Shown in pieces: positions 9,631 through 34,658 of a stretch of DNA of 41,666 bases (the first letter of the stretch is position 1; the number at the start of each line of letters is the position of its first letter). Origin of the DNA: a virus; the IMG/VR virus record IMGVR_UViG_3300010885_005800, positions 1-41,666 of that record; one strand, given 5' to 3'. The translations under genes and the position numbers were made by a program. The notes beneath the pieces were generated by a model. That model made no database searches, was not told where the DNA came from, and saw only the letters and a list, made by a program, of their open reading frames with translations.

Positions 9631-9847
9631 CGTACCGACAAAGGCGCTAGAACAACTTGCCTATATCGATGAGGTGCGTGAGGTACTTGCCAAGTACGGT
9701 TTCACCTTAGATAAGCCAGACGACTATGAAGAGGTGATGGAGATCAAGCTCAAGGAGTTTGAAGAGCGCCTGCACGAGAAGTTAGAAGAGGCTGAATCCC
9801 TTATCCACATGCTAATAGCGGATCATGACAGTTCAGGACATTGTTAG
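9617..9847 (+). CDS. 76-aa coiled-coil protein upstream of TerL
   Basis: ATG 9617 follows GAGAAGG and gives MESTSVPTKALEQLAYIDEV, then a very acidic, heptad-like helix (VMEIKLKEFEERLHEKLEEA). The longer frame from 9587 adds a basic stretch with no ribosome site. It overlaps TerL by 23 nt. It is likely an oligomeric packaging or regulatory factor, but the family is unrecognised. Confidence 0.6.
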   Translation: MESTSVPTKALEQLAYIDEVREVLAKYGFTLDKPDDYEEVMEIKLKEFEERLHEKLEEAESLIHMLIADHDSSGHC

Positions 9848-11237
9848 ACAGCTAGAGGATACAGCTAAGAAAGCTGGTCCAGTACAAGCTGAGGTCGCCG
9901 TTAAAGTAGCCAAATGGTTATTATCTAGACATGATTATCAAAAACTACCTGAGGGTGATTGGTGGAACATCTGGCTATTCCTTGCTGGTCGTGGAGCTGG
10001 AAAGACTAGGACAGCAGCCGAGAATCTATGGCAAATGGCATGGAGACAGCCGAAAACCAGATGGTTGGTTTCTGCTCCAACTTACGCCGACGTTAAAGAC
10101 GTCTGCTTCCTTGGGGAAAGTGGGCTCATCAACGTCATGCCTAGAAGCATTGTCCTCAAGCACACCGTAAGCGACAACGAGATCCATTTAACCAATGGGT
10201 CAATCATTAAGGGAATAGCGGCTTCTGAGCCTGAGCGCTTTCGTGGACCCCAGTTTCATGGTGGCTGGCTAGATGAATTGGCGGCGTGGGAATACCTTGA
10301 TGAAGCATGGAACATGATCCAGTTCGGTATGCGTCTAGGTCAGCGTCCTATCCTGATCTGCACCACTACTCCTAAGCCTAAGCCACTGATCTTTGATCTG
10401 ATGAACCGAGACGGTGATGATGTGATCGTTACTACAGCGACTACCTATGACAACTTAGAGAACTTGGCGCCCACCTTTAAGAACCAGATCCTGCAATACG
10501 AGGGTACGACTCTTGGCAGGCAAGAGATTTACGCTGAGATCATCGATCCAGAAGAGCAAGGCATCATTAAGCGCCAGATGTTCAAGCTCTGGGATTCAGA
10601 GAAGCCATTGCCTAAGTTCCAGTACGTTATCCAGTCGTATGATTGCGCTACGTCCGACAAGACTAAGAACGATCCTACAGCTTGCGTGGTGCTAGGTGCA
10701 TTTAAGCCATCAGACGACAAGCCAATGGCTGTGATGGTGATTGATTGCTGGTCAGAGCACATGCAATATCCAGACCTGCGTCCACGAGTGATTGAGGAGT
10801 CAACCTCGATCTATGGTGATGAGAACGAATGGGGTCATGGCAAGAAGGTAGACATGATCCTTGTGGAGGACAAGTCGGCAGGCATTAGTCTTATACAAGA
10901 CTTGCAACGTGCTGGGCTAAACGTCCGTGCATACAATCCCGGTAATACCGACAAGATCGGGCGCCTAAACATTGTCTCGCCCATCATTGCTAAAGGATTG
11001 GTCTATCTGCCAGAGTCAAGCACCAATGAAGGACAGGTAAGAGACTGGTGTCAAGAGTTCGTCAATCAGGTATGCGCTTTCCCAGAAGTAAGGCATGATG
11101 ACTACGTTGACGCCTTAACCCAAGGCTTACGTTTAATGCGTGACATGGGTTTACTAACCGTGGATTATCTGTACAATGACAATGACTTGTATGTCGATGA
11201 GACGCAACCCAAGCGAGTGAACCCTTATGCCGTATGA
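9825..11237 (+). CDS. terL: Terminase large subunit
   Basis: In 470 aa, the ATPase domain has Walker A GRGAGKT (55-61) and Walker B GGWLDE (146-151) with the catalytic Glu, plus TTTPKPKPL (181-189) as the coupling motif. The RNase H-like nuclease domain has acidic residues at YDC (D273), LVEDKSAG (E348/D349) and HDDYVDAL (D425/D426/D429). The protein pumps DNA into proheads and cuts the concatemer. The length is normal. It overlaps the upstream gene and, by 11 nt, the giant protein gene downstream. Confidence 0.95.
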   Translation: MTVQDIVRQLEDTAKKAGPVQAEVAVKVAKWLLSRHDYQKLPEGDWWNIWLFLAGRGAGKTRTAAENLWQMAWRQPKTRWLVSAPTYADVKDVCFLGESGLINVMPRSIVLKHTVSDNEIHLTNGSIIKGIAASEPERFRGPQFHGGWLDELAAWEYLDEAWNMIQFGMRLGQRPILICTTTPKPKPLIFDLMNRDGDDVIVTTATTYDNLENLAPTFKNQILQYEGTTLGRQEIYAEIIDPEEQGIIKRQMFKLWDSEKPLPKFQYVIQSYDCATSDKTKNDPTACVVLGAFKPSDDKPMAVMVIDCWSEHMQYPDLRPRVIEESTSIYGDENEWGHGKKVDMILVEDKSAGISLIQDLQRAGLNVRAYNPGNTDKIGRLNIVSPIIAKGLVYLPESSTNEGQVRDWCQEFVNQVCAFPEVRHDDYVDALTQGLRLMRDMGLLTVDYLYNDNDLYVDETQPKRVNPYAV

Positions 11238-14200
11238 CGAGCTAGGCAATTATATCCAAGGCGATGAGCCTAGCGTTGACCAGATGAAATATGCTCTGGC
11301 TCAAAGAGGATCGATGCCCCTCCGCAACGGATCAGACGTTCCCTATCTTGCTTCAGAAGTTCCATCGATTAGTGTGCCAGCTCAATCAAAAGCTCCGCCA
11401 CGCCCTGCATCAAGTGCCACCAATATCGTACAAGCCTTAGCCGATAAGTTCGGCATTACTGCTATACCGCAATCCATTCTATCCATGGCATCAGGTCTTA
11501 CATCTATCCCTGTCAGTAGTGCTTACGGAGTCTACAAAGGCGTAACCTCACCTAACTTTGGTACTCAAGCTGGTGTGGAAGAGGGAAGACAAGCTTCTGA
11601 GCGTTTACAGCAAGCCATGACTTATGAGCCTACATCGCAAGCGAGCAAAGACATCAATGAAAGCTTGGCAAAAGCTCTTGAAGCTTCCAAGTTGCCCCCA
11701 TATATTGGTGGCATACCGAGAGCTCGTCCGATCCTGACACCCAATGATGTCCGTGTGATGGGCGCCAATGCCAAGCGTGTTGCTGGTGAGGTAGGTGACA
11801 TCAAAGCTGATTTTGTTAATGCCCAGTCTGGTATCCGCCGTGAAAACGTGTTCGGTGAGCCAACACTAGGCGTCAAAGCGCAGGGGGCTGTTGAATCAGT
11901 CGCCCCTGTTATCTATCCTAAGATCGAGCAGTTCATGGAAAACATCGGTGGCTTAAAGCGCATCGACGTAGGGCAAAAAGCCAAGAACTACAGTAAGGCG
12001 TCTGAAGAGATATTCAAGCGTGAGTTCACAACAGCTCGCAGGGCAGGTCAGTCTGTAGACGAAGCTAACATCACTGCATGGAAAGCTAGCCAACTTGACG
12101 ATGTGCCTGAAGGCGCACCGGGTAGCCTTGGAACTCGCTATCTACCCATGACTGATAGGCTAGTTCAAGAATCTATGCTCGGTGAATTAGAGTTCGAGCC
12201 TAAGGCAACTCCACGTAGAAGCGCTCCCAAAGACTTACTCAAGACAGCGGATGCGTTGTCTATGGAAAACTTTGGCACAACATTTGATAATCTGACCCCA
12301 GAACAGAAGGTTCAGTTGCGTGACTATGCGTTGGCATTGCGAACGGTTGGTAAGTCAGCCAATTTACCCGCAGCCCTTGAAGCCTACCCAGAGCTGGCTG
12401 GCTATCGTTACGAGTACACCCCAACTAGAAGCAAGATCGCTGGTGGTTTTGGCAGACAATCCAAGTCTATAACCGTTGAGTCACCTAAGCGTGAGGCTGC
12501 AGGATCAACCATTCATGAGCTGACCCATGCAATCCAAGAAATTGAAGGATTGCCACAGGGTGCCAACACAGCCATGTTCGATCTGACCACAGCTCAGGGT
12601 CGTAAGTATCAAAAGTATGTTGGTGAGCTTCAAGACGAGAAAGAAGCTTTGTTCCATGCAGGCTTTATACAAAAGAAGGCAAACGAGTTTGGAATTCCTC
12701 TAGACGAATACATCAAACAGAACAATGCAGAGATAGATAGCTTGTTCCAAAAAGAGAAAAAAAGCATTACCTCTCGTGAAGCGAACGTCCTAAACCGTAT
12801 GGACGAGTTGGCATTGAAACATACGCCAGAAGAGCTTGAAGCCATGATGAAGGATCTGCAATCAAAGATTGATAAGAATCCACGCAATCCATTCTACGCC
12901 TACAAACAAGTATTTGGCGAAGCTCACGCTCGAAATGCTGAACGTAGAAGCAAGATCCCGTTCAATCTCAGACGTGAGATATTCCCTGAAAGCACATTAG
13001 ATGTTCCAAGGTCAGAGCTACGCTATAGCGATGTTCAGGCAGAAGGACCAGACTTACAGCTCAAGGTAGACGAGAAGCCTAAGCGCCAATCCAAAGCAGA
13101 AGCAGAAGCGTTAGGTCTATACCATCCAGTCGGTGGAGGCGTAAAGCTTAAGCGCCCAATCAGTGAGATGGACATCCAGACAATGGATAACCCAGACATG
13201 CCACTCAAGCCTCGCAAGGAGCTAAGCCCAGAAGAGATGGTTGGAGGCGCAATCATTCCACTTAGCATGGATCTATCAAGCGCAGGCAAGATCATTACAG
13301 GTGTGGGCGGTAAAGAGCTGATCGTCCCAGTCAAAACACAAGGTGGTTATCAATTCATGCAATGGAACGGAGACTCATGGTCATCACTACCAAACGTGTC
13401 TAAACGTATTGGCAACCAGATCCAAACAGCTAGAGAGATGGAAGGCGTAGATCCAGACAAGATATTTGGCGTCACTAAGACAATGTCTCCAACCGCCGTA
13501 GACTTTAACCACATGACCACGGAAGTGCTCCTGAACCAGTTCGATCCGACTACTATTCCGAAGCCTATTGCTAAATCATTCAATACCTTAGTGCGTGATC
13601 AAGGCGTTAAGAATCAAAAGACTGGCGTTATTAACTATCCGTTCAAAACCTTTGAAGGCATCGAGACACCAGAAGGTCGTGCTCAACTGCTAGAGATTTC
13701 TAACTGGGGTGGCGAGCTTCGTAAGAACATGATTAACAAGATGAGCCTCAAAGACTTCAGGGAGGCTGGCTTTCCAGACGTAGCAGAAGCAAGAGCTGCG
13801 GTTAGCGCACCTGAACTTTTAGATCAACCTATCGGAATGATAGGTCATGGCATTACACGATTTGATCCGTCAGGCGAGTTAAACCTTGATCCAGCAGATC
13901 CGCATTATACCTACACCGCTAACATCAAAGGGCATCCAACGATGGGTGCATATGCTGGTGCATTCAAGACGCCCGTCAGTAATGAAGTGGCATTCAAACC
14001 TTATTTTGATGAACGTCGTGCATTAAACAGGCTTCAGTCTGCAGATGATCGTGCATTCACAATGAGCATGCCTATCCAGAAGACTAATCAAGAGTGGCTT
14101 GATACCGTCATGGCTGAGATGGATGCTCAAGACAGAGCCATCAAAGAAGGCTTGACGATGGATGAAGCACGTCTTGCCATCATGCGTAAGGAAGAAGAGC

Positions 14201-16740
14201 CTAAACAGTTGTCACCTAAAGATGATGTTGGCTTCTATTCCAATGTACAGAAGGCTGCCTTAAACCTTAAGCGTCAGTCTGGCAACGGTCAAGCTTACAT
14301 GAACGATATTAAGAAGCAAGCTGGCGTACATAGTGATGAGCTAGAAGCTATGGGTTTGCCTGAGTTCCTAGACTCTAAGAAATCATTCACAACTAAAGAA
14401 GTTCAAGATTTTATTCGTAAGAACAGGCTCAGGATAACTCAAACAAACTTTAGTGAATCTGGGCAAGACTACCAAGATAACTTGATTGCTAAGATACTAA
14501 ATGAGCAAGGGTTTGATTTTGAGCATGCTCCTAGAGATGTCATTAATGAAGCCACAGTTAAAGCAAGACAAATAATGAGGGAAAAACGAGCTAACGGCAC
14601 GTTGATGGAATATGACGATCCAGACAATCCTGCAGAGAACAAAGTGCTTTACGGTCCTGACGAGTACGAAGAGTACATGACACCGGGCGGTAGAAACTAT
14701 CGTGAACTGATATTGCAATCCCCTAAAAAGGCTTCAATCAAGGTAGAAGCTCCAGATGTAGAAGGGGCAACTCTTAAGAAAAAGCAAGAGGCAGGCAATA
14801 GAGTAAGCGCAATCATCTACGACAAAGATGGCAATGAGATTGGTTCAGTCTATAACCTTATGCCAAGTGGATCAGATAAAAATGATATTGAAACATGGGC
14901 TCAGAATCAGAAGCACTTAAAACAAAAAGAAGCTGATAGCACCATGAAGTTTACTGATGGTCATTACAACGCATATCCCAATACATTGTTGAACTTGCGC
15001 CTTCAAGACTTCTTTGACGTTGAAGGCAAAAAAGGTACATTGATAGACGAGCTTCAGTCTGACTGGCATCAAAAGGGCAGGGATAAAGGCTATTACAAAC
15101 AACCTGCAAACATTCCCAAAGCGCCTAAGGTTACAGGTCAGATGATGACTGTCAAAGAGTTTGCTGATAAAGCTGGCATCGATGTGAATGAATATGTCGC
15201 CCATAGAAATGCAATGCAACAAGATTTAGGTCATCCGTTGATTGATGCGGATTCTAAGTTGGCTGTTTTGTTAGATAACGATAAGCCTGCTGTAGCTAGG
15301 ATTGCCATGAGAAGCAATGGGCATGAGATCTCTGAAGAGCGTTTAGCCAAGATGGTAAAAGATCGGCAGCATGGCGCAAACAAGATAGCTCAAGACGCCT
15401 TACAGAGATCGTTCATAGAAGCTAACGCAAGCGGTAAGGTTGCTGACGCTCCATACAAAGAACGCTGGCATGAGCTTGGTATCAAGAAAGCTGTGCTAGA
15501 AGGCATCAAGCGTGGTGACGATAGGATCTATTTGCCAGTAGGAAAAGATGTTTCAGATCGTTATGACTTGAGTAAGCAAGTGAAAGAGCTAACCTACGCA
15601 AACAAAAAAAATGGAAATTTCTTAATCAATGCCTTAGATAATAATGGTAGACCAGCCATAGTTAAAGAAGTTACTGAAAAAGAATTGCCTGATTTGGTAG
15701 GTAAAGACTTAGCAAACAAAATAATTGCCGATTCCAAAGTCAATCTGTTTGGCAATACATATTCAGGGTTAGACTTAAAGGTTGGTGGCGAAGGTATGAA
15801 AAAGTACTACGACGAAGTTTATCCAGCCGTGCTTAAGAAGCTTGCCAAGCAATACGGCGGTAAGTTCGGAGAGACTGAGATTGAAGTTGGCAATCCAGTG
15901 TTTCATGTAATTGATCAAAGCGGAAATAGGCTTACAGCCAGTGGTTTTGTTGGTCAAGAGCATGCAATAAAAAGTCTTGAAAAAGGAATTAGTAAAGGTG
16001 AGTTTCCTGAAAATTCAACTATTGAACAGGTAAACAACACTCGTAAGGTTCGCTACTACGAGCCAAGCGATGAAGCCAAGATTAAGATCCAAGGCGGTAT
16101 TGCCATGAAGGATGGTGGCGCAGTTCACATGCGTGAAGGCGGTATCAACTTACCAGAAATGGATTATCAAGAAGAGCGTAAGCCTTTTATACCGCCTGCA
16201 ATGGTGTTGCCATATAGCGGTCAAGGCACGACTGGCGCCCGTATCATGAAGGGCATTCCCATTAGCAACAAGGGCGCCATTAATCTAATGGCTGACATAG
16301 CGCATTCCCAGACTGGCTCTGGCACAAACTACAACGTGCGTGAAGCTGGTATAGGCTACTCACATAAAGTAGGTCCGGGCTATTTAGGTGGAAACATCTC
16401 GCATCGCCCCGATTCAAAAGAGAACCGCTTTGGTTTGATGTACGCTATTCCAATGGCAGAAGGCGGTAAACCACTGACTCCCTATGAGCAATTTAAGATC
16501 CAGCATGAAGAGATGATCCGCCAAGGCAAGGAAGATATTGCCAATCGAAACAAGTATGATCCGTACAAAGGAAGCGGTAAACCCGTTCCTACTACTCGCT
16601 CATCTGGATCTGCAGGCATAGTGCCTAGCATTGAACCATCTGGTAGTGGTAGCCCTAGCTTATTAAATCCATTGAACCGTAAGAACGGTGGCGATGTAAA
16701 CTTAGATGCAATGCGCTATGCGCTCACGAAAGGTAAATGA
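11227..16740 (+). CDS. Giant polyvalent protein with HELTH metallopeptidase motif and GG-motif tail
   Basis: The 1837-aa protein lies between TerL and the portal. Residues about 420-450 contain STIHELTHAIQEIEG, with HELTH at 430-434, the zinc-binding HExxH motif of metallopeptidases. Long helical and mixed segments follow that resemble the large polyvalent protein-associated domains of phages and conjugative elements (for example GTLIDELQSDWHQKGRDKGY near residue 1274). The last 210 residues carry the motifs MKDGGAV (1627), MREGGI, MAEGGKP (1743) and RKNGGDV (about 1818), and end DAMRYALTKGK, echoing the N-terminal DQMKYALAQRG (19-29). It may be packaged and injected, or act in head maturation. 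No processing site is proven. Confidence 0.8.
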   Translation: MPYDELGNYIQGDEPSVDQMKYALAQRGSMPLRNGSDVPYLASEVPSISVPAQSKAPPRPASSATNIVQALADKFGITAIPQSILSMASGLTSIPVSSAYGVYKGVTSPNFGTQAGVEEGRQASERLQQAMTYEPTSQASKDINESLAKALEASKLPPYIGGIPRARPILTPNDVRVMGANAKRVAGEVGDIKADFVNAQSGIRRENVFGEPTLGVKAQGAVESVAPVIYPKIEQFMENIGGLKRIDVGQKAKNYSKASEEIFKREFTTARRAGQSVDEANITAWKASQLDDVPEGAPGSLGTRYLPMTDRLVQESMLGELEFEPKATPRRSAPKDLLKTADALSMENFGTTFDNLTPEQKVQLRDYALALRTVGKSANLPAALEAYPELAGYRYEYTPTRSKIAGGFGRQSKSITVESPKREAAGSTIHELTHAIQEIEGLPQGANTAMFDLTTAQGRKYQKYVGELQDEKEALFHAGFIQKKANEFGIPLDEYIKQNNAEIDSLFQKEKKSITSREANVLNRMDELALKHTPEELEAMMKDLQSKIDKNPRNPFYAYKQVFGEAHARNAERRSKIPFNLRREIFPESTLDVPRSELRYSDVQAEGPDLQLKVDEKPKRQSKAEAEALGLYHPVGGGVKLKRPISEMDIQTMDNPDMPLKPRKELSPEEMVGGAIIPLSMDLSSAGKIITGVGGKELIVPVKTQGGYQFMQWNGDSWSSLPNVSKRIGNQIQTAREMEGVDPDKIFGVTKTMSPTAVDFNHMTTEVLLNQFDPTTIPKPIAKSFNTLVRDQGVKNQKTGVINYPFKTFEGIETPEGRAQLLEISNWGGELRKNMINKMSLKDFREAGFPDVAEARAAVSAPELLDQPIGMIGHGITRFDPSGELNLDPADPHYTYTANIKGHPTMGAYAGAFKTPVSNEVAFKPYFDERRALNRLQSADDRAFTMSMPIQKTNQEWLDTVMAEMDAQDRAIKEGLTMDEARLAIMRKEEEPKQLSPKDDVGFYSNVQKAALNLKRQSGNGQAYMNDIKKQAGVHSDELEAMGLPEFLDSKKSFTTKEVQDFIRKNRLRITQTNFSESGQDYQDNLIAKILNEQGFDFEHAPRDVINEATVKARQIMREKRANGTLMEYDDPDNPAENKVLYGPDEYEEYMTPGGRNYRELILQSPKKASIKVEAPDVEGATLKKKQEAGNRVSAIIYDKDGNEIGSVYNLMPSGSDKNDIETWAQNQKHLKQKEADSTMKFTDGHYNAYPNTLLNLRLQDFFDVEGKKGTLIDELQSDWHQKGRDKGYYKQPANIPKAPKVTGQMMTVKEFADKAGIDVNEYVAHRNAMQQDLGHPLIDADSKLAVLLDNDKPAVARIAMRSNGHEISEERLAKMVKDRQHGANKIAQDALQRSFIEANASGKVADAPYKERWHELGIKKAVLEGIKRGDDRIYLPVGKDVSDRYDLSKQVKELTYANKKNGNFLINALDNNGRPAIVKEVTEKELPDLVGKDLANKIIADSKVNLFGNTYSGLDLKVGGEGMKKYYDEVYPAVLKKLAKQYGGKFGETEIEVGNPVFHVIDQSGNRLTASGFVGQEHAIKSLEKGISKGEFPENSTIEQVNNTRKVRYYEPSDEAKIKIQGGIAMKDGGAVHMREGGINLPEMDYQEERKPFIPPAMVLPYSGQGTTGARIMKGIPISNKGAINLMADIAHSQTGSGTNYNVREAGIGYSHKVGPGYLGGNISHRPDSKENRFGLMYAIPMAEGGKPLTPYEQFKIQHEEMIRQGKEDIANRNKYDPYKGSGKPVPTTRSSGSAGIVPSIEPSGSGSPSLLNPLNRKNGGDVNLDAMRYALTKGK

Positions 16741-19280
16741 TGGCGGAGATGCCCATTCCACAAGATTACGACAGATACGTTGACCCAATTTCAGGTGAGC
16801 AAGAGGAGGAAATGTCCGATGAATCCCTGATGGAGATTCTGGATCAAGACGAATCAGATGTAGAAGAGTTGCCTGATGGCTCAGCCATTGTTCGTTTAGA
16901 TAACCTTAAAGGACCTGACGATACCCCTGATTTCTATGAGAACCTAGCTGACAAGTTAAAAGAATGGGATCTTGAAAACATTGCCTTAAAGTACCTTGAC
17001 CTGATTGATAAGGACAAGGAAGCTCGTGAAGACAGAGATAAGCAGTACGAAGATGGCTTACGCCGTACTGGATTAGGTAATGATGCTCCCGGTGGGGCTC
17101 AGTTTATGGGTGCTTCTAAGGTAGTTCACCCTGTTATGGCTGAAGCTTGCGTTGATTTCGCAGCTCGTGCTATCAAAGAACTATTCCCACCAAACGGTCC
17201 CGTCCGTACCAAGATCATTGGAGAGTCATCCGAAGAGAAGGTTGAAAAGGCTGACCGTAAGCGTGACTTCATGAACTGGCAGTTAACAGAGCAAATCGAA
17301 GAGTACCGTGATGAGCAAGAGCAGATGCTTACCCAGCTCCCATTAGGTGGCTCACAGTACATGAAAATCTGGTATGACGAGTCTAAAAAGCGCCCATGCG
17401 CTGAGTTTGTACCAATTGATAACATCTATTTGCCATTCTCTGCAGGTAACTTCTACACCGCAATGCGTGTTACAGAGGTTCAAGACATCACCGAAGAGGA
17501 ATATGAGCTCCGTGTAGAGACAGGTTTATACCGTGATCTGTACACCAGCATGCTTACCCAAGAGCCTGACCAGACTAAACCTGAAAAAGCCAACGATAAG
17601 ATCGAAGGACGTAAGAGTTCAGGCTCAAACGTGGATGGAATCCGTCGAGTATTTCACATTCAGACATGGCTATCCCTAGAAGATGACAAGTTTTCCAAGG
17701 GTGATCGTGCTCCATACATCTTGATGATTGATGAAAACGAGCAAAAGCCTGTTGGTTTGTATCGTAACTGGGAGAATGGCGATGAGATGTGTACCAAGCT
17801 TGACCACATCATTGAATTTAAGTTCATTCCTTGGAGGGGTGCTTACGCTATTGGTCTTCCTCACCTTATTGGTGGTCTTAGCGCCGCCCTTACTGGTACT
17901 CTCCGTGCTCTATTGGACGCTGCACATATCAATAATGCGCCTACGATGCTTAAGCTCAAGGGTGCGAAGATGTCTGGACAGTCGACGACTGTTGAAATCA
18001 CTCAAATCTCAGAGATAGAAGGCGCCCCCGGAGTCGATGACATCCGCAAGATTGCAATGCCAATGCCATTTAATGCGCCAAGCCCTGTTCTATTCCAGTT
18101 ATTAGGCTGGTTAACAGACGCTGCCAAGGGAGTTGTCACAACTTCTGAGGAAAAGATTGCTAATGCCAACAACAATATGCCTGTTGGTACAGCTCAAGCG
18201 TTGATTGAACAAGGAGCTGTGGTTTATTCCTCGATTCACGCTCGTTTGCATGACAGTCAACGCCGTGTATTCAAGGTTTTAGGTCGTATTAACCGTTGGT
18301 ATCTTGATGAACAGCAAAAAGGTGAGATTGTTGCTGATCTTCCTATCACTACTGAAGACTTTAAGAGCAACTCTGACATTATTCCTGTCTCTGATCCCAA
18401 TATCTTTGCAGAATCACAGCGTTACGCTCAGATTCAAACATTGGCGGCTCGTGCTCAAGCCAATCCTGACCTGTACAACCGTATTGCTGTAGAGAAACGC
18501 ATCCTAGAACAGATCAAGTTGCCAGAGATCGGTGAAGTATTGCCTGATCCACAAGATGTTAAGGACATGAACCCTGCACTTGAGAACGTGGCAATGACTT
18601 TAGGTAAGCCTGTGGGCGCATTCCCAAGCCAAGATCAGTTATCGCACCTGCTAACCCATCTGCAGTACGCTTTAGATCCGTTATATGGCTCTAATCCAAT
18701 CATGGCGCCCACATTTATTCCTGCATGTTTAGAGCACATCAAGCAACACTTAACGCTATGGTATCTAAACCAAGCTGATACCTACACTAGCGTTTCTTTA
18801 GGTCGTCCGTTTAACGTATTGAAGGTTCAACCGATGATCCAAGAAGCTCAAAAGCTATTGGCGGCTTCTGCTATGCACGTTCACCAAGACGCCAAGCAGA
18901 CAATTGCTCCAGAGGTTATGCCTGCCATCCAGCAAATGCTTGGCATGCTCCAGCAGATGAAGCAAACCAATATGCCTCCTGCGTCTCCAGACGTGATGGC
19001 TCAGGTTAACGCCCTTACTCAAACAGCAATGGCAGAAACACAACGCCGTGCTGAGAAAGATCAGGCAGAAACCTATATTGATTCACAGCGCCTCGCCCAA
19101 GACAAGCTTATTGAGACTCAGCGCCTGCAGTTAGAAGCGGCTGAGAACACAGAAGACAACTTGGTTAAAGAGCGCATGCAGACAGCAGAATTAACGCAGG
19201 ACGCAATACGGTTGCAAAATGAGCAAGTGCAAACCGCTTTGAAAGCTCAAAAAGAACTTCAATCCAAATTAGGAGAGTAA
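16737..19280 (+). CDS. Portal protein (P22-like)
   Basis: The 847-aa protein has the typical acidic N-terminus, then a stem/wing-like core (GAQFMGASKVVHPVMAEACV, ELFPPNGPVRTKIIG, LPLGGSQYMKIWYD, and a TGTLRALLDAAHINN helix) that matches large portals of P22-like and marine podophages. It ends with a long Gln-rich helical C-terminus (from about 690) consistent with a barrel domain. It forms the dodecameric DNA gate at one capsid vertex. Its ATG overlaps the previous stop (ATGA). The identification is strong from pattern, length and position after TerL. Confidence 0.92.
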   Translation: MMAEMPIPQDYDRYVDPISGEQEEEMSDESLMEILDQDESDVEELPDGSAIVRLDNLKGPDDTPDFYENLADKLKEWDLENIALKYLDLIDKDKEAREDRDKQYEDGLRRTGLGNDAPGGAQFMGASKVVHPVMAEACVDFAARAIKELFPPNGPVRTKIIGESSEEKVEKADRKRDFMNWQLTEQIEEYRDEQEQMLTQLPLGGSQYMKIWYDESKKRPCAEFVPIDNIYLPFSAGNFYTAMRVTEVQDITEEEYELRVETGLYRDLYTSMLTQEPDQTKPEKANDKIEGRKSSGSNVDGIRRVFHIQTWLSLEDDKFSKGDRAPYILMIDENEQKPVGLYRNWENGDEMCTKLDHIIEFKFIPWRGAYAIGLPHLIGGLSAALTGTLRALLDAAHINNAPTMLKLKGAKMSGQSTTVEITQISEIEGAPGVDDIRKIAMPMPFNAPSPVLFQLLGWLTDAAKGVVTTSEEKIANANNNMPVGTAQALIEQGAVVYSSIHARLHDSQRRVFKVLGRINRWYLDEQQKGEIVADLPITTEDFKSNSDIIPVSDPNIFAESQRYAQIQTLAARAQANPDLYNRIAVEKRILEQIKLPEIGEVLPDPQDVKDMNPALENVAMTLGKPVGAFPSQDQLSHLLTHLQYALDPLYGSNPIMAPTFIPACLEHIKQHLTLWYLNQADTYTSVSLGRPFNVLKVQPMIQEAQKLLAASAMHVHQDAKQTIAPEVMPAIQQMLGMLQQMKQTNMPPASPDVMAQVNALTQTAMAETQRRAEKDQAETYIDSQRLAQDKLIETQRLQLEAAENTEDNLVKERMQTAELTQDAIRLQNEQVQTALKAQKELQSKLGE

Positions 19281-19561: not shown

Positions 19562-19750
19562 TTGAATCTAATTAATGATTTGATTACCCGTATCAAGCAG
19601 TCAAAGCAAGGCATCGCTGAGGCTATGGTAAATGGAAATTGTCACAATTTCGAAAGTTATCAGCGCTTGGTAGGGCAGAGTATAGGCTTGCAAGAAGCTT
19701 TGCAAATAATTGAAACATTACTTAAAGAGGAAGAAAATGTCGAGTATTGA
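19562..19750 (+). CDS. 62-aa helical protein (TTG start)
   Basis: TTG 19562 immediately follows the previous stop, with AGAGG upstream. The product (MNLINDLITRIKQSKQGIAE, then a C-terminal IETLLKEEENVEY) is fully helical, resembling short head-region proteins found beside portals. It overlaps the co-chaperonin start. Its function is unknown. Confidence 0.6.
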   Translation: MNLINDLITRIKQSKQGIAEAMVNGNCHNFESYQRLVGQSIGLQEALQIIETLLKEEENVEY

Positions 19751-20162
19751 CATTGAACAAACGCTGTTAGAGGCGTTTCCAGAAGTAGATCCATTGATGG
19801 CTCCGTATGGAGCAAGGGTTCTCGTTCAAATGAGAGCTGTTAAAGAAAGGATTACCGACGCAGGGTTATTGCTACCTGAAGAGACTAGAGAAGCTGAAAA
19901 GTGGAACACTATGATTGGCAAGGTGATCGCTATAGGTCCTTTAGCTTTTAAGAAGCGTGACACGATGGAACCATGGCCCGAAGGGTCTTGGGCGTCAGAA
20001 GGTGATTATGTTCGTGTGCCAAAGTGGGGCGGAGATCGCTGGGAAATTGACTTTGAAGATGCTAATGGTGCTAAGGGACATGCTTTATTTACGTTCTTTA
20101 ACGACCATGAGTTAATCGGTAAAGTCACTGGAGATCCGAGAGCCATTAAAGCATTTATCTAG
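19737..20162 (+). CDS. GroES-like co-chaperonin
   Basis: From ATG 19737 (Shine-Dalgarno AAAGAGGAAG) the 141-aa product matches the Cpn10 fold. PYGARVLVQMRAVKERITDA (23-42) corresponds to the GroES N-terminal strand. AGLLLPEET (42-50) sits where the mobile loop's IVL tripeptide contacts GroEL. GKVIAIGPLAF (61-71), SEGDYVRVPKWGG (87-99) and the final ELIGKV (125-130) follow the family order. No GroEL is encoded here, so it would work with the host chaperonin, as T4 gp31 does for its capsid protein. Its place just upstream of the scaffold and capsid genes fits that role. Confidence 0.85.
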   Translation: MSSIDIEQTLLEAFPEVDPLMAPYGARVLVQMRAVKERITDAGLLLPEETREAEKWNTMIGKVIAIGPLAFKKRDTMEPWPEGSWASEGDYVRVPKWGGDRWEIDFEDANGAKGHALFTFFNDHELIGKVTGDPRAIKAFI

Positions 20163-31085: not shown

Positions 31086-34000
31086 ATGCCACGTTTATCT
31101 AAAATTGGTGCAGCAGCCCTAGGAGCCTTTGGCTTTACTGGAGGAGGCGCTGCAGCCGTTACTGCTAGTTACCTAATTGTCGCTGGCGGCGCAGGTGGCG
31201 GATCAGGAGTAGCTGGTGGTGGCGGCGCTGGTGGTTTGTTAACCAGCACAACATCTTTAAATGCAACGCTTTCATATACCATTGTGGTGGGCGCTGGCGG
31301 TGCAGGCGGTGCAGGCGCTGGATTTAATGTTGGCGCATCTGGTTCAAATAGCTCTGCATTTACTATAACCTCTACTGGCGGTGGTTTTGGTGCAACTGGC
31401 GTTTCTTTAAAAAATGGTGGCTCTGGTGGTTCTGGCGGTGGCGGTGGTTCAGATTCTACGGCTGCAGGAACAGGCGGTGCTGGTACTGCTGGTCAAGGTA
31501 ATAACGGTGGAAACGGTTTTTATTCTGCTGGTGTTAATCAAGCTGGCGGTGGTGGCGGTGGCGCAAGTGCAGTAGGCGCAGCAGGTACTGGTACTGGCGC
31601 TGGCGCTGGTGGCGCTGGATCAGCTTCTTCTATTACTGGCACATCAGTAACATACGCTGGTGGTGGTGGCGGTGGAAATAGAAATACTACATATTCTGGT
31701 GGAGCTGGAGGCGCAGGTGGTGGTGGCGCTGGGTCAAATGGCGATAACAACGCAACATCTGGATCTGCCAACACAGGCGGTGGTGGTGGTGGATCTGGCT
31801 ATACAGCATCAGCAGGTACTGGCGGTAACGGTGGCTCAGGCATTGTCATCATCTCTTACGCTGGCGCTCAGCAATTTGGTGGCGGTATCGTCACATCCGT
31901 GGGCGGTAACACGATCCACACATTCAATACATCAGGAACGCTTGTTCCTCTTAGTTCTTTATCTGCAAGCTATTTAATCGTAGCTGGTGGCGGTGGTGGT
32001 GGTGCAAGTACAGGTGGTCGTGGAGGCGGTGGCGGTGCTGGCGGTATGCTTACTGGTTCTGGCGTAACCATTGACACAAGCTCAACATATTTAGTCACAG
32101 TTGGTGCTGGTGGTACTGCTGGAGATGGAACTACTGGCGCTGGTGGACATGGTGGTAATGGAACAAATTCTACGTTCAGCATGGTTTCAACTGCATCTGT
32201 TGGTGGCGGTGGTGGCGGTGCAAATGACGGTACAGGTCAAGCAAACGGAAACAACGGTGGATCTGGTGGTGGAGCACACTATAACGGAACTGCAGGTACT
32301 GGAACTTCTGGTCAAGGTAATAATGGCGGAACTGCAACTGTAAACCCAAATTTTGGATCTGGAGGTGGTGGCGGTGCAGGAGCTGTAGGTGCAAACGGAA
32401 CTACAACCGTTGGTGGTAACGGCGGTGTTGGATTAACTTCTAGCATTTCTGGAACATCTACATATTACGCTGGCGGTGGCGGTGGTCAAATTTCTTCAGG
32501 CACACCGGGAACTGGTGGTTTAGGTGGCGGTGGTGCAGGTACTGGAGTTTCGGGAACCGCAAATACTGGTGGCGGTGGCGGTGGATTAGGTAGTGGTGCA
32601 GCAGGTGGTTCAGGCGGATCAGGCATCGTAATCATTAGCTACGCTGGCGCTACTCAACAGATGGCTGGCGGTTCAGTGACAATCACTGGTGGCAATGTAA
32701 TCCATACATTTACTTCAAGTGGATACTTAACTCCGCTGACTTACTACAGCAACAGCTTGCGTTTCCGTCTATCGGCTAACGGTTATTTAAATAGAACTCA
32801 AACTTCTGGAGATAGACAAAAATGGACATGGAGTGGCTGGGTTAAGCGTGGATCTTTTGGAACAAGACAAGGTTGGTTTAGCGCTGGACCAGCAACATCA
32901 AGAACTGATGCAAATACTTTGCAGTTTGGTTGGCAAAATGATAATACCTTACAACTAGGTCTTGAAACAACATATGTTTTGTTATCCACCCAAGTATTTC
33001 GTGACCCCGCAGCTTGGTATCATTTTGTTGTTAATCTTGATACCACTCAAGCAACTGCATCTAACAGAATGCGTATTTATGTTAATGGATCAGAAATAAC
33101 TTCATGGGCAACAGACAATAGAGCAACAGCTATTACTCAAAACGTAAACTTAGGTGTAAATCTAAGCGCAAACCCTCTTTTCTTAGGCGCAATTTCAGCA
33201 ACTGTATCTCCAACAGATGGCTACATGACCAATGTCAATTTTGTTGATGGTCAGCAATTAACACCAAACAGCTTCGGTACCTTTAACTCATATGGTGTAT
33301 GGCAACCAATTAACTACGGTGGTAGCTACGGTACTAATGGCTTCTATTTGCCGTTTAACAGTGGCTCACAGACTTTTGCTGGTTCATTTACTTATGCCTC
33401 AAGCCAAGTCTTATCTGTTGCAGATAACGCTGCGTTAGAGCTAGGTAGTGCTGATTTCTGTGTAGAGGGATGGTATAACCCAACATCGTTTACTAACAAC
33501 TTAGCTTTGTACAGCAAGAGAGCAAACTCAACTTCAGTAGGTTCTTTTATTATCTACGCTGGTTCTGGCGGTGGTACATTAACATTTTATGCAAGCTCTG
33601 ACGGTTCTACTTACTTCTACTCAGGAACAAGTTTTGGAACGGTGGTTCTTAATCAATGGAATCACTTTGCAGTTTACAGAAGTGGTAATAACTGGTATGG
33701 ATCTGTCAACGGTATTGTGACGTCAATGGGTTCAAACTCCAGTGCAATATTTAACAACGCAGAAGCATGGAGAATTGGTGGCGACTCTAACGGTAACTAC
33801 GCTAACGGTTATCTTTCTAATACCCGTATAGTTACAGGAAGCCCTGTTTACACTTCAGCTAACTTTATTCCATCAACAAGCCCGTTAACTGCAATCACTG
33901 GCACTCAGTTATTAACACTTCAAAATGCAACTATTGTTGATAACTCAACTAACGCATTTACTATTACAAACACGGGTTCAGTAACAACAGCCACGTCAAA

Positions 34001-34658
34001 AGCACTTTCAACTGCAGTGTTCTTAGATCAGTCACCACAGGGCAACAACTGGACACCTAACAACATCTCTGGTGCTACAGGCTCTACGCTTGATTACATG
34101 ACCGATGTCCCCACGCTGACTAGCGCTACTGCGGCTAATTATTGCACTTTAAACCCATTGATGTCTGGTGGCACGTTGACTGATGGCAATTTAAAAACCG
34201 TAACGATTAATAATTCTTCTTTTGGTACTATACCAATTGTTTCTGGAAAAATATACTTTGAATGTACTATTGCATCTGCTGGTACTGATATGTGGTTTGG
34301 TGTATTAAACTCTACTACTGTTCTTTCACCATCAACAAGTGCAAACTGGACTGGATCTCAAGGGCTTACATATAGGGGCTCTGGTGTTAAGAATAATGGA
34401 ACAGATACTTCTTATGGCGCATCTTGGACTACTGGAGATATTTTATCTGCAGCTTTAGATATGACTGCAGGAACAATAACTTTCTATAAAAATGGTGTAA
34501 GCCAAGGCGTGGCATTTAGTTCTGGTGTAGCTGGAATTTCTTGGATTCCGCTGATTTATTCGGCTAACTCTACAACAGCAACTTTTAACTTTGGTCAACA
34601 GCCATTCACCTACACCGTGCCAACAGGATATGTTGGTTTAAACACTTACAACCTATAA
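31086..34658 (+). CDS. Large adhesin: duplicated glycine-rich modules plus LamG- and SPRY-like domains
   Basis: The 1190-aa protein contains two tandem glycine-rich modules, each opening ASYLIVAGG and closing GGSGIVIISYAGA (about 27-293 and 294-550). A LamG/concanavalin-like domain follows (about 553-731, TWSGWVKRGSFGTRQGWFSA, AAWYHFVVNLD), then a second LamG-like domain (about 765-930, FCVEGWYNPTSFTNNLALYS, NQWNHFAVYRSGNNWYGSVN) and a SPRY-like C-terminal domain (about 1029-1187, GKIYFECTIASAGTDMWFGV, TITFYKNGVSQG). Glycine-rich and LamG modules are typical of phage receptor-binding proteins, so this is the best candidate host-range determinant. Confidence 0.85.
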   Translation: MPRLSKIGAAALGAFGFTGGGAAAVTASYLIVAGGAGGGSGVAGGGGAGGLLTSTTSLNATLSYTIVVGAGGAGGAGAGFNVGASGSNSSAFTITSTGGGFGATGVSLKNGGSGGSGGGGGSDSTAAGTGGAGTAGQGNNGGNGFYSAGVNQAGGGGGGASAVGAAGTGTGAGAGGAGSASSITGTSVTYAGGGGGGNRNTTYSGGAGGAGGGGAGSNGDNNATSGSANTGGGGGGSGYTASAGTGGNGGSGIVIISYAGAQQFGGGIVTSVGGNTIHTFNTSGTLVPLSSLSASYLIVAGGGGGGASTGGRGGGGGAGGMLTGSGVTIDTSSTYLVTVGAGGTAGDGTTGAGGHGGNGTNSTFSMVSTASVGGGGGGANDGTGQANGNNGGSGGGAHYNGTAGTGTSGQGNNGGTATVNPNFGSGGGGGAGAVGANGTTTVGGNGGVGLTSSISGTSTYYAGGGGGQISSGTPGTGGLGGGGAGTGVSGTANTGGGGGGLGSGAAGGSGGSGIVIISYAGATQQMAGGSVTITGGNVIHTFTSSGYLTPLTYYSNSLRFRLSANGYLNRTQTSGDRQKWTWSGWVKRGSFGTRQGWFSAGPATSRTDANTLQFGWQNDNTLQLGLETTYVLLSTQVFRDPAAWYHFVVNLDTTQATASNRMRIYVNGSEITSWATDNRATAITQNVNLGVNLSANPLFLGAISATVSPTDGYMTNVNFVDGQQLTPNSFGTFNSYGVWQPINYGGSYGTNGFYLPFNSGSQTFAGSFTYASSQVLSVADNAALELGSADFCVEGWYNPTSFTNNLALYSKRANSTSVGSFIIYAGSGGGTLTFYASSDGSTYFYSGTSFGTVVLNQWNHFAVYRSGNNWYGSVNGIVTSMGSNSSAIFNNAEAWRIGGDSNGNYANGYLSNTRIVTGSPVYTSANFIPSTSPLTAITGTQLLTLQNATIVDNSTNAFTITNTGSVTTATSKALSTAVFLDQSPQGNNWTPNNISGATGSTLDYMTDVPTLTSATAANYCTLNPLMSGGTLTDGNLKTVTINNSSFGTIPIVSGKIYFECTIASAGTDMWFGVLNSTTVLSPSTSANWTGSQGLTYRGSGVKNNGTDTSYGASWTTGDILSAALDMTAGTITFYKNGVSQGVAFSSGVAGISWIPLIYSANSTTATFNFGQQPFTYTVPTGYVGLNTYNL

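Follow-up and report, generated by a model that had tools for sequence, protein, structure and literature searches.

The window analysed here is a 41,666-nucleotide stretch of viral DNA, positions 1 to 41,666 of IMG/VR record IMGVR_UViG_3300010885_005800. An open reading frame for a giant modular protein of 1837 residues sits in it between the genes for the terminase large subunit (TerL) and the portal protein (Table 1). This gene order had been proposed in an earlier, sequence-only reading of the DNA and is borne out by the Terminase_6N/6C and phrog_1216 matches of the two flanking proteins.

Table 1. Positions of the giant-protein gene, its parts and other genes of the head region in the window
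Feature	Position	Strand	Basis
Terminase large subunit TerL	9825..11237	+	Terminase_6N/6C match; context
Giant modular protein, 1837 aa	11227..16740	+	ORF, stop included; full-length homologue L001
N-terminal copy of short terminal motif, VDQMKYALAQR, residues 17-27	11275..11307	+	Near the N-terminus in 45/47 proteins
Conserved leader region, about residues 74-243, with PNDVRVMGA block	11446..11955	+	Sequence comparison
LPD23-like segment, about residues 246-290, diverged	11962..12096	+	Position and motif resemblance by eye
Zincin metallopeptidase domain, about residues 374-602	12346..13032	+	Alignments, predicted fold, structure matches
HELTH, residues 430-434, first zinc-site helix	12514..12528	+	H, E, H invariant in 68/68 aligned
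GEAHARN, residues 564-570, second helix; E565 probable third zinc ligand	12916..12936	+	Alignment and model
Module without assigned function, about residues 641-976	13147..14154	+	Separate gene in other phages
Second module without assigned function, about residues 1010-1620	14254..16086	+	Phage comparisons
C-terminal GG and short-helix tail, KNGGDVNLDAMRYALTKGK	16681..16737	+	Comparison with relatives
Portal protein	16737..19280	+	phrog_1216 match; context
GG-motif protein, 92 aa	19283..19561	+	Motif search and comparison with relatives
Major capsid protein, 304 aa	22336..23250	+	Pfam/PHROG matches; context
Multi-GG protein, 272 aa	24585..25403	+	Motif search
GG-motif protein with DUF6321, 226 aa	25739..26419	+	Pfam match

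A single near full-length homologue of the giant protein was found (L001, the same contig as L012). It is ~60-63% identical over the alignment and retains both GEAHARN and, as HELQH, the HELTH motif. The whole protein gave no PHROG at E 0.1 and no PDB sequence match, and its sole Pfam row, DUF1858, was sub-threshold. The modules other than the peptidase match no family in the Pfam scan and have counterparts among phage head-region genes. Those at residues 641-976 and 1010-1620 occur elsewhere as separate or differently ordered genes (MW202675, MW202879, C72C1, CRP-902, PH1 and Dfl-JY45). Structure prediction of the N-terminal leader returned no usable fold (pLDDT 43.9), and the invariance of PNDVRVM in the leader is built in by construction, as this string served as search pattern.

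The GG-motif proteins to which the earlier reading had drawn attention are real, and comprise the C-terminal region of the giant protein and the three GG proteins of Table 1. In the 226-aa protein, DUF6321 is C-terminal, and the N-terminal segment also starts an 845-position virion structural PHROG. C39 and JAMM-type GG peptidases, also considered, are not known to use HExxH. A prohead protease domain was not recognised in the window proteins scanned (sets of 8, 10 by Pfam and 10 by PHROGs, partly overlapping), in keeping with the earlier remark that no conventional one is visible. Fused 'head maturation protease' PHROGs were matched by the capsid protein over their capsid part; at 304 aa, it is without the protease part. 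Presumably no protease is to be expected where the scaffold is a protein of its own, as the 329-aa product of the gene preceding that of the capsid may be. The head-gene block also holds a GroES-like co-chaperonin at 19710-20162 (Cpn10, phrog_3188), found in nine of ten related records. Further downstream, at 31086-34658, lies a protein of 1190 aa in which two long repeats rich in glycine are followed by a C-terminal part that may be tail-fibre- or adhesin-like, a function that is guessed.

The zinc-peptidase domain and its predicted fold

HELTH is the single HExxH across all window ORFs of at least 60 aa, and chance would supply a mean of 0.028 such strings per shuffled copy of the giant protein. 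It is not a chance string, because it is kept as HELQH in L001 and because the domain around it belongs, by alignment, to a large family. The motif had been reported before at residues 430-434, which is confirmed, and at nucleotides 12511-12525, which is one codon early and starts at I429.

When the domain was compared by tblastn with 50,697 phage records, weak matches were obtained in 45, mostly Pseudomonas phages of F116 type. All six of these that were examined carry HE[IVL]QH, with GEVEARN in five and GEAEARL in the sixth. A scan of IMG/VR, built on an alignment of the six phage records with the window, gave at least 206 places, and 80 were kept; HExxH is present in 80/80 of them and GE..A[RQ] in 77/80. 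As HExxH and GExxAR were the search patterns, their invariance, that of E565 included, is partly built in. The domain alignment comprises 68 sequences, picked from 73 distinct segments. H430, E431, H434, G564 and E565 are invariant in all 68, under search patterns that favoured these motifs, while position 567 holds glutamate in 64, glutamine in 2 and histidine in 2. E565 in GEAHARN is probably the third zinc ligand, since it is invariant in this alignment whereas position 567 varies. The histidine at residue 567 (window 12922-12924), in place of the near-invariant glutamate, is found solely in the window and L001. A scan of genome contigs gave no relative. No Pfam model is passed by the window domain: DUF6782 (PF20573) reached 12.9 bits against a cut-off of 27, and Peptidase_M78 (PF06114) gave no match. 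Judged from its sequence, the region of residues ~374-602 is a genuine zinc-peptidase domain, which would bind zinc.

Structure prediction, which the earlier reading had suggested as a check, gave a zincin-type fold. The AlphaFold model of residues 320-620 (pLDDT 86.2, pTM 0.74) has a core of a three-stranded sheet and the HExxH helix that comes after it; a long insert of helices then leads to a second helix with GEAHARN (244-255 in model numbering), into which E565 falls. In BFVD, 11 matches at E <=0.001 were obtained, the top rows at E 3e-8 to 3e-4, and the top matches are mostly phage 'large polyvalent protein associated domain' proteins. Matches to the PDB were weaker. Foldseek gave none at E 0.001, with weak rows for jannalysin, the most probable among the rows shown (0.66), and CapP. 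With VIA-align, SPRTN and an M61 peptidase (Z 4.6 and 4.5, respectively) aligned over the sheet and HExxH helix, within noise, and the best rows of this program against the PDB landed on the helical insert. The lack of a strong PDB match by either program shows little.

Likeness to polyvalent-protein peptidases

Going by alignment and model, the window domain appears to be of a known polyvalent-protein peptidase type. According to Iyer et al. 2017 (PMC5512222), a zincin-like MPTase with the same architecture is the commonest polyvalent-protein domain, phage polyvalent proteins near virion genes bear zincin domains, and their proposed roles are self-processing or action on host proteins. The window domain resembles these MPTases in its three-stranded core, HEXXH helix, second-helix glutamate and variable insert between the helices, and its multidomain host protein is likewise encoded beside virion genes. 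The comparison with polyvalent proteins that had been suggested earlier thus finds the BFVD matches and this architecture in agreement. Unlike the MPTases of Iyer et al., the window domain is without a Pfam match and has a histidine for the second glutamate in GEAHARN.

The LPD23 segment (PF18838) lies upstream of the peptidase in 7/7 hand-picked relatives scanned, over the Pfam cut-off in six. In the window, residues 246-290 gave no Pfam match to it and resemble it by eye only. One relative whose tblastn match spans window residues 233-447 (L155) passes LPD23. The name LPD23 was considered for the peptidase itself and rejected, as it denotes the segment that precedes it. LPD23-plus-metallopeptidase phage proteins, such as those of L098, L112 and L135, and F116's giant virion protein share the signature HE[LIV]QHAIQ...EG...GExEAR with the window, and such proteins, like that of the window, are often encoded beside portal or ejection genes. 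Their leader differs from the window's, and the window LPD23 has diverged below detection. A preprint (PMC12633501) describes an HExxH domain, C1, in the giant ejected virion RNA polymerase of N4. The likeness to the window is by description: both have HExxH in a giant protein, and that of the window has no polymerase.

Stand-alone peptidases are frequent, with 28 of 70 closed peptidase ORFs shorter than 550 aa. In a survey of ten neighbour proteins from seven of eight listed loci, a stand-alone LPD23-type metallopeptidase gene was seen directly 3' of the portal gene in L124 and L133, and the peptidase gene lies upstream of the portal gene in L098 and L122. From such portal-adjacent genes, a virion-linked role stays likely.

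What the peptidase cleaves can be read in several ways. It is possible, at less than even probability, that an injected IrrE/ImmA-like protease cleaves a regulator of the host or a resident prophage, or another host protein. IrrE/Peptidase_M78, DUF6782, jannalysin (4jix) and SPRTN (6mdx) have a similar small HExxH zinc-peptidase core, by weak profile or fold matches. The profile match to IrrE 3dte (E 0.01) is weak, as are the Foldseek rows given above; the relative L059 (a 197 aa segment) is over the cut-off for both DUF6782 and Peptidase_M78, L105 passes the latter, and stand-alone homologues exist. Nevertheless, the likeness is confined to the strand and HExxH region. A little less probable, and on the whole unlikely, is an autoproteolytic releaser, by which the fused modules would be separated from one another inside the head or the host cell. 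It draws on the occurrence of the two modules at 641-976 and 1010-1620 as separate genes and on the self-processing proposed by Iyer et al. (PMC5512222). However, the short ORFs have little else to release, so that freeing fused cargo cannot be the peptidase's only role, and the virion RNA polymerase of N4, in which there is a similar domain, is described there as packaged unprocessed (PMC5512222). As H567 stands where 64 of 68 sequences have glutamate, catalysis by the window domain is not assured. That the domain has degenerated, is inactive and plays a structural part is nevertheless quite unlikely, with H430, E431, H434 and E565 all kept, in L001 too despite ~60% identity.

Relatives of the giant protein and the GG motifs

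The leader (residues 1-243) is common to 47 IMG/VR loci; 46 were analysed together with the window, and L013, a partial copy identical to the window, was left out. Among the 46, the giant proteins are closed in 24 and open in 22, and many rows are near-identical, with 11 distinct tails. L012 is the only closed homologue with HExxH, which is absent in the other 23/23. The open ones have none in their sequenced part, which is weaker evidence. A GG in the last 45 aa is present in all 25 closed giant proteins, the window included, hence also in the 23 without HExxH.

The scan of ten related records covered them in full or almost in full (G011, G015 and G017 being shorter fragments, and G017 nearly the same as G018), and the peptidase domain was matched in none of the ten. 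Against the window, their TerL is 68-72% and their portal protein 68-74% identical (a partial portal match in one), and the capsid protein is 88-95% identical in eight. Where found, GroES is 63-77% and the scaffold-like protein 53-63% identical. The 92-aa GG protein is present in eight and the 226-aa GG protein in five. GG motifs are kept in all ten, with G015 showing the giant protein's own GG tail only. Nine HExxH/HExxxH strings occur in ORFs of at least 80 aa from six of the records, none with the family signature. These records have matching heads and GG proteins and are without the domain; such heads therefore occur without the peptidase, which is dispensable among the relatives.

A stricter C-terminal pattern was scanned against IMG/VR and found 34 contigs, several already among the loci examined. 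The tail motif ends two residues before the stop in 34/34, the printed tails have GG just upstream, and HExxH occurs in 0/33 scored ORFs.

The sequence-only reading had united the observations in a zinc peptidase that cleaves at GG sites in place of a prohead protease; its peptidase site and the polyvalent link stand, and the GG-processing role is contradicted by the relatives. Processing by the peptidase of GG proteins, and of its own C-terminal GG tail, while the head assembles is very improbable. In its favour are the shared gene block, the stand-alone homologues next to the portal gene in L124 and L133, the GG tail at the end of 6/73 peptidase ORFs and the processing of P1 DdrB before packaging (PMC5512222). 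Against it, close homologues have lost HExxH and kept GG (23/23), an outcome that the earlier reading had itself named as refuting, the domain was found in 0/10 records whose head genes and GG proteins match, and the proteins of the tail scan end in GG tails with no HExxH among those scored. GG cleavage by the peptidase was rejected on these comparative grounds, and the comparisons suggest that it is an exchangeable payload, neither a GG-processing nor a head-maturation enzyme.

Terminal motifs and the proposed payload

Outside L001, the window protein aligns with its relatives over the leader and the last residues only, and divergence starts from about residue 260. The relatives share among themselves the first ~900 residues, are variable thereafter and have the tail in common again. 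The motif [DE]xM[RKQN][YFL]x[LIMV] was found in the first 45 residues of 45 of the 47 proteins and in the last 45 of 24 of the 25 closed ones, and nowhere else in those proteins; the shuffled window protein has 0.05 of it in all. In the window, the related short motifs DQMKYAL (within 11275-11307) and DAMRYAL (within 16681-16737) lie near the two ends, conserved despite different interiors. L033 is without both copies, and L032, with the same leader, is without the N-terminal one. Covariation of the N- and C-terminal motifs is not beyond chance (15 distinct pairs; in 1852 of 10000 permutations the observed value was equalled or exceeded). A search of phages with the leader segment gave one record only, and a DNA pattern for the tail, which was too strict, 0/172 loci. 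Four peptidase proteins with unrelated leaders (L134, L147, L148, L155) end in GG and [VI]x[LI][DE]xF. Given these, GG tails may be more widespread among phages.

The terminal motif might be an address tag. In phage T4, a short terminal peptide, the capsid-targeting sequence, has been proposed to direct proteins into the head. Unlike it, the window motif is at both ends and in a phage without a recognised maturation protease. Tentatively, at somewhat less than even probability, we propose a payload slot between TerL and portal, in which a fixed leader and tags would surround a swapped interior, so that one loader would serve various injected enzymes.

Taken together, we hold it reasonably probable that the giant protein is of the polyvalent type, packed and ejected, with an exchangeable interior that includes an LPD23-associated zincin, and that this peptidase is not a GG or head-maturation enzyme. 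The protein would probably be carried in the head and leave it together with the DNA on ejection. The part between about residue 260 and the C-terminal tail would be the exchangeable payload, with the LPD23-associated zincin (HELTH and E565) as one of its modules. Most likely the peptidase would act once it has been ejected, when it would cleave a host protein or free the fused payload modules, and self-cleavage elsewhere in the giant protein is possible. The conserved leader, the C-terminal GG-plus-helix and the N-terminal motif would most likely load or dock the protein.

With the peptidase as payload, annotation as a head-maturation protease is unwarranted. If the terminal motifs truly load and eject the protein, they would offer a way to test how giant proteins enter phage heads, and a simple handle by which metagenomes could be searched for phage effectors that are injected and have no assigned function.
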